Of a DNA stretch of 27,224 bases, positions 6,603-13,468 are shown in pieces. The notes under the pieces are model-generated. The model had not been told where the DNA came from, ran no database searches, and saw only the letters and a program-made list of their open reading frames with translations. The stretch is taken from the IMG/VR virus record IMGVR_UViG_3300046653_000026, positions 1 to 27,224 of that record. One strand, given 5' to 3'. The number at the start of each line of letters is the position of its first letter. Position 1 is the first letter of the stretch. The stretch is from a virus. The position numbers and the translations under genes were made by a program.

Positions 6603-7319
6603 TTAGTTAACCAACCCTTCTGTGGGAAGCATCTCAAGGTACGTAGCCTCCAGTGTATCAAGTGCCGCTTGCTGATCTACCGCACTCAATGTGTGTGAGT
6701 TTGAAAACTCCTTATTCGCGGCGACAGATGCGTGAGAATGTTCTCCCTGTGTCGGCGGCGCGATACCACGAATCGCATTGATGATACTGCGAGAAGCCTG
6801 ATCTGCTTTCTCAAAGTCAAAAGCATCTACCGGCTTAATCTCCGCACGAGATACCTTGGCGAATGTACCTTCACGATCCAGAAGTTCAAGAGCGACGGCA
6901 GTTTTATGCTTGCGCTCCATGAGTGTGGTGGCCGGCTGTAGGAGTTCATTCGCCAAGACTTGCAGCGCGGCGGGGAGTTGCTGCGCGAGAACTTCTTTAC
7001 GCTGTTCACGAATCAGGGCAAGATCACCTGTGGTATCAAGGATGATACCCTTCGTGATACGCATACGTGCGTTTAGATAATCTTGAGAGCGTTTCAAATA
7101 ACGAAGACGAGGAACTGAAATAGAGAGCATCGCAGCGATCTGTGCTTCTGGGAGCATAGCTGCTTCCATACGAACCATTGTCTCAAAGCGAAGATGCTTC
7201 TTATAAGTTGCGCCAGCACTCGGCTTTGGTCCTTGCATACCAGTACGTGCGTTTACGCTGCCACCATAATGTAGGTGTGCGTTGACGATAATCGGACTTG
7301 TAGTGGGTGTCGTTGCCAT
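6603..7319 (-). CDS. Terminase small subunit-like DNA-binding protein
   Basis: A 238-residue protein with a helix-turn-helix-like segment near residues 55-80 (LPEAQIAAMLSISVPRLRYL), followed by charged helices and a polar tail. Small terminase subunits have an N-terminal HTH that recognises the packaging site and a helical region that forms a ring and recruits the large subunit. Position in the packaging operon, four genes from its start and two before the large subunit, supports the call. The ATG at 7319 directly follows the upstream TAG and has GGGGGATGA in front. A plain DNA-binding regulator is the main alternative. Confidence 0.65.
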   Translation of the reverse strand: MATTPTTSPIIVNAHLHYGGSVNARTGMQGPKPSAGATYKKHLRFETMVRMEAAMLPEAQIAAMLSISVPRLRYLKRSQDYLNARMRITKGIILDTTGDLALIREQRKEVLAQQLPAALQVLANELLQPATTLMERKHKTAVALELLDREGTFAKVSRAEIKPVDAFDFEKADQASRSIINAIRGIAPPTQGEHSHASVAANKEFSNSHTLSAVDQQAALDTLEATYLEMLPTEGLVN

Positions 7320-7982: not shown

Positions 7983-8218
7983 GTATAGGTTGATTGGTAG
8001 TTATGGCAAGTCTATTGCTACTATATAGACGTGAGGCAATAGCCAAGCAAGGCCAAGAGCCAACCGTAGCACAAGCAAAAGGTATAGTTCATTGACAATC
8101 TAAACCATTCACGCCGATGTGCTTTGCGGCCATGCTTGAAGGATAGCATACCGATACCTGCTACCTGACAGTACACCGTAGTTAGCCTAGTGAATGATGA
8201 ACACCAAACTGAACAGGA

Positions 8219-8287
8219 ATACAGATTACCTGTATGAGTGGTAACACACGCTGTTAGTTTGGTTCACAGTATGGCACTGTACGTGCC
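8219..8287 (+). other. Three consecutive hairpins in the early leader
   Basis: ATACAG/CTGTAT (8219-8235), TAACA/TGTTA (8242-8256) and GGCAC/GTGCC (8273-8287) are each perfect stems with 5-base loops, following one another before the large structure at 8291. Even spacing without coding potential suggests a folded RNA leader. Confidence 0.55.
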
Positions 8288-8290
8288 GAG

Positions 8291-8405
8291 TGCTGTGAAG
8301 AGGGGAATAGAAGAAAGCCTGTACAGGCAACCCGTCACGGTGTTGGAGTAACAGACGTTCACACACGTCAGTGTTATTCATCCAACGCTTCCCCTCTTTA
8401 CAGCA
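8291..8405 (+). ncRNA. Structured leader RNA element, long closing stem with two internal hairpins
   Basis: Bases 8291-8307 pair with 8389-8405 over 17 consecutive positions, the only irregularity being one G-U pair (8297/8399). Enclosed are a perfect GCCT-GTAC-AGGC hairpin (8317-8328) and a second arm: GTTGGA/TCCAAC (8342-8347/8381-8386), TAACA/TGTTA (8349-8353/8372-8376) and GACGT/ACGTC (8354-8358/8365-8369), with a two-base bulge. The result is a three-way junction of 115 nt ending 25 bases before the first early gene. The last bases of the closing stem are shared with the hairpin at 8401-8416, so the two folds exclude each other. It does not match a riboswitch family I know. Confidence 0.6.
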
Positions 8406-8416
8406 TTTTAATGCTG
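8401..8416 (+). promoter_or_regulatory. Alternative hairpin before the ribosome site
   Basis: CAGCATT and AATGCTG form a perfect 7-bp stem with a TT centre (in practice a smaller stem with a 4-base loop), 4 bases before the GGAG of the 8431 gene. Its 5' strand is also the 3' end of the 8291-8405 closing stem, so opening one allows the other. Confidence 0.5.
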
Positions 8417-8430
8417 TACGGAGAAACGAT

Positions 8431-8985
8431 ATGTCTAACAACTTGAGAGAACAGCTTGCAGACGTGCAAGCTACTGCGACTTCCACCACGGTGGAAACTT
8501 CGCACGCGAAACCGATTGACTCTTACTTCACAGTAGAGCACCAAGGGATGATTGCCGCGAAGTATCGCGCAAAGTATTCGGATGCTGATCAGCAGATACA
8601 CAAGGCGGCATGGCCGGAGTTCGCCGGAAACCACTTCACAATGTATGTACTTGCAGAGACACTGAGTGAGGCGCGGAAAGCGGTATTTAGTGCGAACCGT
8701 GCGATTTTTCTCAATAATCTAACCGGCGCAATGGTGAACTACACGCCAGCGGTCCCCGGCGCTACACTCACAGAGCTGATGATGACGTTCAACAAGACAG
8801 CGGATTTGCAGTTACAAGCGCTGTATGAGCAAATACCGGATGAATCACAGCGCGCAGAACTTCTCAAGGCTTTTGCGAAGTCGCTGAAGCAAGCAACCCG
8901 CACCGGCAAGGATACAGATACCGCACGCGGGAAGTTCTTCCACGCATCTGCTACCCTAGGGATAACGCCTAACACCATTTGGTAG
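8431..8985 (+). CDS. Hypothetical early protein, 184 aa
   Basis: First rightward gene. The ATG at 8431 follows GGAG by 7 bases; an in-frame upstream start at 8371 lies inside the folded leader and is rejected. The protein begins with about 45 polar residues, then a charged helical body with ARKAVFSANRAIFLNN and a basic C-terminal part (KSLKQATRTGKD). No recognised domain. Being first behind a folded leader, it may be a host-takeover or regulatory protein; this is inference from position. Confidence 0.82.
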   Translation: MSNNLREQLADVQATATSTTVETSHAKPIDSYFTVEHQGMIAAKYRAKYSDADQQIHKAAWPEFAGNHFTMYVLAETLSEARKAVFSANRAIFLNNLTGAMVNYTPAVPGATLTELMMTFNKTADLQLQALYEQIPDESQRAELLKAFAKSLKQATRTGKDTDTARGKFFHASATLGITPNTIW

Positions 8986-8991
8986 CCAATA

Positions 8992-9035
8992 GGTACAGGC
9001 CGCTTCTACCCTTAATAGGTGAGGCGGCCTGTACC
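8992..9035 (+). terminator. Strong hairpin after the first early gene (no U-tract)
   Basis: GGTACAGGCCGC at 8992-9003 pairs perfectly with GCGGCCTGTACC at 9024-9035, starting 7 bases after the stop of the 8431 gene. A run of T does not follow, so it is either a weak terminator, a processing site or a 3'-end stabiliser. Confidence 0.45.
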
Positions 9036-9509: not shown

Positions 9510-9545
9510 TTGACATTCCCCGGTGACACCCTTATAATGTAAGGG
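9510..9545 (+). promoter_or_regulatory. Perfect consensus sigma-70 promoter with operator-like palindrome
   Basis: TTGACA (9510-9515), a 17-base spacer and TATAAT (9533-9538) match the sigma-70 consensus exactly. The palindrome CCCTTA-TAATG-TAAGGG (9529-9545) covers the -10 box and the likely start, where a bound repressor would block RNA polymerase. Transcription should start near 9545 and reach the 9561 gene after a leader of about 15 bases. Confidence 0.85.
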
Positions 9546-10387: not shown

Positions 10388-10624
10388 ATGCCAAACAAAG
10401 GTTTTACGCGTTGTAGGTTTTGTAATAAGGTGATTGTGCGTGATCCAATGAATAAAGAAGCCTGGATTCACGCGGCGACGAGAACTGTACCTACTCAGTA
10501 TTACGGTTGCAACTTCTACTTGTCAGATGCTAAGAAACTTGGTCTTGTAATGCGCTCGTATGGTATAATGGACAGAGCGCACGCAGAGCCAAAAACCATA
10601 ATCACACCAGAGAACGCTTCATAA
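10388..10624 (+). CDS. Hypothetical 78-aa protein with a CxxC motif
   Basis: ATG after AGAAGGAGAAGAAA. It begins with a basic stretch and CRFC, with a later His and Cys (HAATR, YYGCNFY) that could complete a metal site of the C-x2-C...H...C type. Small zinc-ribbon proteins are frequent in phages and often bind nucleic acid or host polymerase; that would be inference here. Its TAA directly precedes the long stem at 10625. Confidence 0.78.
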   Translation: MPNKGFTRCRFCNKVIVRDPMNKEAWIHAATRTVPTQYYGCNFYLSDAKKLGLVMRSYGIMDRAHAEPKTIITPENAS

Positions 10625-10747
10625 GTTCTCTTCCCTGTAGAATAGGTACTCTTTAGTATCACTCAATACTGAGTAATTCCTGAAATCATGGTTTCGGTAA
10701 AGTGAGAATATGCGAATACGGGAACGTGTTCCTACAGGGAAGAGAGT
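10625..10747 (+). ncRNA. Structured intergenic element, 16-bp closing stem
   Basis: Bases 10625-10640 pair with 10732-10747 over 16 positions, two of them G-U. Inside are an AGTAT/ATACT hairpin extended by ACTC/GAGT (10648-10674), a GAAA/TTTC hairpin (10682-10695) and GGAA-CGTG-TTCC (10721-10732). The first paired base follows directly after the stop of the preceding gene, and the next start lies 43 bases beyond the stem. Confidence 0.55.
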
Positions 10748-10789
10748 GTATGTAGCTCTACTACGTAGTAACAAAGAAGGAGGAAGAGA

Positions 10790-12002: not shown

Positions 12003-12105
12003 GTGTATTCTGTAGGAAGCAAGATCGACAGAGGCTCTTTTCCTGTAATTGGGGCGCCTTTGTACAGGGATTCTCCCCTCTTCTCTTGCTTCCTACAGAG
12101 TACAC
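12003..12105 (+). ncRNA. Structured intergenic element, 22-bp closing stem
   Basis: Bases 12003-12024 pair with 12084-12105 over 22 uninterrupted positions with one G-U (12008/12100), the longest stem of this kind in the window. The loop holds CCTGTA/TACAGG (12042-12047/12063-12068) around a GC-rich GGGGCGCC. At 22 bp it is about two helical turns, the length RNase III prefers. Confidence 0.6.
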
Positions 12106-13007: not shown

Positions 13008-13079
13008 GACAAGGTCAGCTAACTGGTAGGCTCTCTCCTTTATAAGGAGAGAATGTGAGTTCGAATCTCACCCTTGTCC
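13008..13079 (+). tRNA. tRNA, anticodon loop TTTATAA (UAU, reads AUA isoleucine)
   Basis: A full cloverleaf can be drawn: acceptor GACAAGG/CCTTGTC (7 of 7), D arm AGCT-AACTGGTA-GGCT with the conserved A14, GG and A21, anticodon stem TCTCC/GGAGA with loop TTTATAA, a short variable loop, and T arm GTGAG-TTCGAAT-CTCAC. Positions 34-36 are TAT, so it should decode AUA. Oddities: CCA follows the acceptor stem directly (13079-13081) with no separate discriminator base unless the first pair is open, and position 9 is C. The phage proteins contain many AUA codons, so a supply for this codon would make sense. Confidence 0.78.
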
Positions 13080-13385: not shown

Positions 13386-13468
13386 TGTATTTACAGTATA
13401 GGGCAAGACACAACAAGAGTTGTATTGCTTAAATTGCCAGCGATGCTGGAGCCTATACTGTGAGTATA
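13386..13468 (+). ncRNA. Structured intergenic element, 17-bp closing stem with two hairpins
   Basis: Bases 13386-13402 pair with 13452-13468 over 17 positions, three of them G-U. Inside are ACAAC-AAGA-GTTGT (13410-13423) and CCAGC-GAT-GCTGG (13437-13449), both perfect. The next gene starts 60 bases later. Confidence 0.58.

Follow-up and report, generated by a model that had tools for sequence, protein, structure and literature searches.

In a group of uncultured phages, the first rightward gene is preceded by an RNA leader that can adopt either of two mutually exclusive folds, a long double-stranded rod or two hairpins that reuse its strands, and both are kept by compensatory changes in relatives. 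With a probability slightly better than even (about 0.52), this leader is an RNase III-type RNA-processing site at which cutting switches the fold; here we infer the transcription, the cleavage, the enzyme, and the stabilization of the mRNA. The window, that is, the whole 27,224-nt stretch of DNA analyzed (IMG/VR record IMGVR_UViG_3300046653_000026), is a 27 kb phage contig with late genes (terminase, portal-like, and neighbors) running leftward and early and replication genes running rightward from 8431. The leader occupies the control region between these divergent sets of genes, where inverted repeats are dense. An earlier reading of the window (hereafter the sequence-only reading) had proposed the exclusive folds together with a switch acting on translation or transcription; the folds were recovered, and the gating was not supported.

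Relatives were collected with two baits. The first was the terminase, which in the window is distantly similar (20-25% identity) to terminases of Leptolyngbya and Anabaena podoviruses; the best 80 of 112 loci matched in a scan of viral contigs came mostly from one large phage group. The second was the small-terminase-like neighbor gene at 6603-7319. About 20 related IMG/VR phages, a family from soil and peat, have this leader in front of their first gene. The first gene occupies the same place in more than 20 related phages, where it encodes a very variable protein of 155-200 aa (17-61% identity among phages) that is predicted to be all-helical (pLDDT 73), with no fold match to the predicted structure. 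Searches with this gene by tblastn recovered nothing in phages, and a scan with a peptide pattern likewise gave no relative, because the gene evolves fast. Megablast and blastn of the leader against GenBank phages returned no match. Rfam likewise gave nothing for the leader at gathering score (only matches with E > 3, the best at E 3.8), in agreement with the remark in the sequence-only reading that no riboswitch class could be named; across the window the only hit above threshold was a tRNA at 13008-13079.

The leader is dense in RNA structure, as had been supposed. The minimum free energy (MFE) of 8200-8440 is -93.2 kcal/mol, whereas 200 dinucleotide shuffles averaged -61.9 +/- 5.1 kcal/mol and never reached that stability (z -6.2). 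The + (coding) strand has a lower MFE than its complement in 20 of 20 leaders, and shuffle z-scores agree with this preference in most leaders, not in every one. Because of this asymmetry and of a GNRA loop that is kept in every aligned relative (GUAA, GUGA, GCGA, GCAA, or GAAA), selection most likely acts on this RNA rather than on DNA inverted repeats. A DNA-level element (a replication origin, cruciform, or packaging signal), of which the RNA fold would be a by-product, would suit a control region rich in inverted repeats; however, both the strand asymmetry and the loop disfavor it, as do the end of the module at a Shine-Dalgarno (SD) sequence and the similar modules before other early genes, and we regard it as very improbable. 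The features discussed are listed in Table 1.

Table 1. Features of the leader and of the early region, in window coordinates.
Feature	Position	Strand	Basis or remark
TTGACAAT motif upstream of leader	8092..8099	+	kept in most relatives
Module A, three-way junction	8203..8263	+	covariation; covariance-model match 8202-8263, 51.9 bits
Module A closing helix, two parts	8204-8209/8257-8262 and 8213-8216/8251-8254	+	covarying
Module A hairpin 1, AUACAG-AUUAC-CUGUAU	8219..8235	+	covarying stem
Module A hairpin 2, GUG-GUAA-CAC	8238..8247	+	GNRA loop
5' hairpin a:b, ACAGUAU (8266-8272) with GUGCUGU (8290-8296)	8266..8296	+	alternative to rod; hairpin-pair covariation
Rod, 20-bp contiguous helix 8288-8307/8389-8408, 81-nt inner loop	8288..8408	+	MFE
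V, 5' strand of 11-bp hypervariable helix	8297..8307	+	pairing by position in 19 phages
V', 3' strand of 11-bp hypervariable helix	8389..8399	+	pairing by position in 19 phages
3' hairpin a':b', ACAGCAU-UUUA-AUGCUGU	8400..8417	+	arms pair with b and a in rod
SD sequence GGAG, outside both folds	8420..8423	+	sequence; fold models
First rightward gene, 184 aa, no assigned function	8431..8985	+	fast-evolving relatives at same place in other phages
15-bp hairpin directly 3' of first-gene stop codon, without U-tract	8992..9035	+	folding
Second module of same design, before ATG 10790 with SD	10610..10759	+	GAGAAC/GUUCUC 5' hairpin; AGAG/CUCU 3' hairpin 10743-10759
V of second module, 10 bp	10631-10640/10732-10741	+	helix scan
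22-bp rod, 59-nt loop, intergenic	12003..12105 (12003-12024/12084-12105)	+	counterparts GUGUAUUCUNUAGG.. in relatives
17-bp rod, early region	13386..13468	+	helix scan

Module B (8266-8417) consists of six segments in the order a-b-V-V'-a'-b', which form the rod when a pairs with b', b with a', and V with V', and the hairpin fold when a pairs with b, V with V', and a' with b'. The rod is the MFE structure, with its outer pairs a:b' (8266-8272/8411-8417) below the central helix. The sequence-only reading had placed a 115-nt fold resembling a three-way junction here; a junction does exist, as the separate upstream module A, but the structure predicted in its stead is the long rod. The final hairpin, claimed at 8401-8416, is real and one base longer at either end, GGAG follows it where expected, and its 5' arm, ACAGCAU, serves as a 3' strand in the larger fold as well, as the postulated sharing of a strand demanded.

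Both folds are conserved. For the rod, 95.3% of cells across 18 phages are paired and 13 of 20 pairs carry compensatory changes; none of 500 shuffles scored as high on either the cells paired or the covariation score, and slid controls were also far lower. The corresponding values for the hairpin pairs are 96.1% and 14 of 20, again with 0 of 500 shuffles as high and slid controls far lower. Conserved pairing in relatives, the absence of which would have spoken against the original claim, is therefore present as covariation. The fourth pair is informative: in five phages a double change from G-C to A-U keeps a:b while turning the rod pair a:b' into A.C, which argues that hairpin a:b is directly selected in its own right. 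It should be noted that the segment alignments for module B were curated by hand and that related sequences are not independent, such that these counts are strong without being probabilities. Because the closing helix varies in length among relatives, RNAalifold did not recover it from the unedited MAFFT alignment, and segment alignments were therefore made by hand; these lean towards structure, with V positions 7-12 having played no part in the choice of segments.

Helix V is fixed in length and free in sequence. It measures 10-11 bp in 19 of 19 phages, with pairing in 18 or 19 of the 19 at each of positions 1-10, in 16 at position 11, and in one at position 12, the last being below the chance expectation of about 37%. 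The V sequences of different phages share only about half of their letters, and the inner loop that they enclose ranges from 5 to 276 nt. The constraint on length looks like the mark of a binder that measures double strands. Counted with b:a' and a few pairs below it, the central helix runs without interruption for 20-24 pairs in 19 of 20 leaders (the exception, L044, contains a single mismatch), and the same 19 of 20 thus offer an extended double-stranded RNA of about two turns, as at RNase III sites. In L006, L014, L041, and L059, a small ORF lies inside the inner loop with its SD within V (by reading), and in L014 and L041 the stop codon of this ORF falls just 5' of V'.

What the leader does was considered with respect to the SD and to termination. 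The unpaired probability of the SD is 0.20 in the rod, 0.29 in the hairpin fold, and 0.18 in the cut product, and no U-tract follows the last hairpin in the window or in any relative. Since the SD is about equally exposed in all models and no U-tract follows, masking of the SD and termination do not fit, and a switch or terminator of this kind is unlikely. These observations, together with the recurrence of rods elsewhere, are what set aside the riboswitch-like gating that had been suggested. Attenuators usually consist of alternative hairpins with a common strand, and module B has that anatomy. Nevertheless, a transcription attenuator or ligand riboswitch that works through terminator and antiterminator hairpins is the least credible of the explanations weighed: what follows the last hairpin resembles ACAGGAGAA and is never a U-run, Rfam has no match, and the design recurs before other early genes.

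A regulatory switch without cleavage merits more attention, yet remains rather unlikely. A protein (from the phage, from the host, or the product of the gene at 8431) or the elongating polymerase would select the fold and thereby tune ribosome loading or the life of the mRNA. Such a switch would account for the conservation of two exclusive folds; in the window the advantage of the full-length rod over the hairpin fold is only about 3 kcal/mol, and the edge of the 11-bp V could be the footprint of a protein that does not cleave. However, in most relatives the rod is favored by about 8-15 kcal/mol and would be hard to reverse, the exposure of the SD is nearly equal in the two folds, and one layout is common to first-gene proteins of different clades and precedes other early genes with different sequences.

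That recurrence was seen in the early regions of 14 phages, which hold 30 distinct contiguous helices of at least 16 bp on the early strand; in 18 of these an SD and start lie at most 75 nt away. Most of the 18 have at least one stump hairpin sharing a rod strand and 11 have both. In a separate scan, contiguous helices of at least 18 bp clustered at 20-22 bp, and V in the early-region rods was mostly 10-11 bp and up to 13 (by eye). Rods that recur before other early genes are more in keeping with a generic processing site than with a sensor of a ligand; some early-region rods lack one or both stump hairpins, and this counts against processing. In the family of the 12003-12105 rod the lower stem GUGUAUUCUNUAGG is common and the upper part variable, often without a nearby SD, and these rods may constitute a further kind of processing site. 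The spring-water podovirus L189 (MW202554), a distant relative, has a perfect 18-bp helix on the reverse complement (6119-6136/6238-6255).

RNase III cuts early T7 RNA, lambda leaders, and other RNAs, leaving 2-nt overhangs (PMC5371410; PMC4858673), and mapped E. coli sites match the consensus of proximal, middle, and distal boxes imperfectly (PMC5371410). Among the works cited in PMC3997798 are some in which 5'-terminal stem-loops stabilize mRNA in E. coli. In the processing reading, uncut module B would be a double-stranded rod in which the one-turn, 11-bp V stacks on a b/a' helix of about 9-11 bp, with a:b' underneath. The cut would be made by a double-strand endonuclease, presumably RNase III of the host (a phage-encoded RNase III was searched for and none was found), near the middle of this helix of about 22 bp, at about the V/b and V'/a' boundary. 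Once freed, a would pair with b and a' with b', giving the upstream leader RNA a 3'-terminal hairpin and the mRNA a new 5'-terminal one just a few nucleotides before the SD. The first gene would be left with an mRNA that is hairpin-capped, stable, and translatable; related rods before other early genes would be cut likewise, dividing the early transcript into further capped mRNAs. When cut products were modeled, the expected 5'-terminal hairpin adjoining the SD and 3'-terminal hairpin on the leader did fold. A mid-rod cut would jointly explain why V is constrained in length and free in sequence, why a:b and a':b' are conserved, why rods stand before SDs, and why they recur.

Processing by itself does not account for module A, which counts against that reading. 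Its three-way junction is present in about 17 distinct leaders; 95.3% of cells in trimmed segments are paired, double changes occur in 14 of 19 pairs, and none of 500 shuffles reached its covariation score. The stem of hairpin 1 is AUACAG/CUGUAU in the window and AUACGU/GCGUAU or GGCGC/GCGCC in other phages, and hairpin 2 has the form GUG-GNRA-CAC. A module A DNA pattern matched 25 viral contigs, nearly all already known as terminase, polymerase, or neighbor-gene relatives; a Doudnabacteria contig that also matched was not detected by the covariance model and is probably a chance hit. A search for PF00940 (single-subunit RNA polymerase) had no match in 12 records, and control genomes were equally silent. 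The covariance model finds one match per phage, only at the first-gene leader, and none in L027, L041, L042, L047, and L181; because these relatives retain module B, module A appears, by this model, to be separable.

The lambda N leader runs from a nut site through an RNase III hairpin to the SD, and the order of parts here is the same. Module A could by analogy recruit the polymerase or a phage factor, with RNase III removing the rod and so relieving translational repression of the first gene. The conservation of module A and its restriction to a single site per phage speak for such an element, as does the resemblance to put RNA, which comprises two stem-loops near early promoters (PMC9378689). 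We nonetheless consider it quite unlikely, given the five rod-bearing relatives in which module A goes undetected, that no boxA was identified, and that a sigma-70 promoter of the next gene with 12 of 12 matches (TTGACA-17-TATAAT), just downstream at 9510-9538, would spare the distal genes any need for antitermination from the leader. A 43-nt inverted repeat (9205-9247/9422-9464, 84% complementary) lies just before this promoter. A search of the + strand from 7600 up to the leader turned up no sigma-70 promoter, which counts against the processing reading. If TTGACAAT is taken as a -35 box, the window contains no corresponding -10 at a spacing of 16-18 nt; the motif may act as a regulated promoter or as an element of the RNA. 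Between it and module A, a 64-bp block (8122-8185) is about 88% identical in L005, L006, and L008.

These phages allow an RNA with two exclusive states, both under selection, to be compared across a large data set. If the processing reading is true, both new RNA ends would be protected at the moment of cutting, the fixed 11-bp helix of free sequence would provide a clean test of length measurement by a double-strand nuclease, and the module would serve as a compact genetic part with which to produce hairpin-capped mRNAs. Tentatively, and with more doubt than confidence, the leader may belong to a class of RNA modules not described before, in which a helix of exactly one turn, fixed in length and free in sequence, is measured by a protein, the arms are encoded twice to give either a rod or two capped ends, and the early transcript is repeatedly partitioned, with module A reserved for the first gene. 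A limited literature search found no description of stump refolding around such a helix, which is weak evidence of novelty.

The nearest known cases are T7 and the lambda N leader. The latter also has a small element with a GNRA-type hairpin, followed by a large duplex and the SD of a first early gene, whereas the leader described here has a three-way junction instead of boxA/boxB and a stump-refolding design. A paper on the lambda N leader RNA is among those cited in PMC5371410. The put RNA of HK022, compared by layout only, similarly places two adjacent stem-loops in an early leader (PMC9378689); here, in contrast, a third helix closes both stem-loops and a rod follows. The early RNase III sites of T7 (R0.3, R1.1, and others) are alike in that several stems stand before genes in the early region of a tailed phage and in that the products would be separate early mRNAs. 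However, the early intergenic regions of T7, when folded, gave short, interrupted stems with small loops and in no case a long perfect helix enclosing a large one, whereas the present family has a perfect rod of about 22 bp with an upper turn of fixed length and free sequence, loops reaching 276 nt, some of which contain ORFs, and stump hairpins that share the strands of the rod. Since the T7 stems are shorter and interrupted, module B would be at least a variant of such sites.
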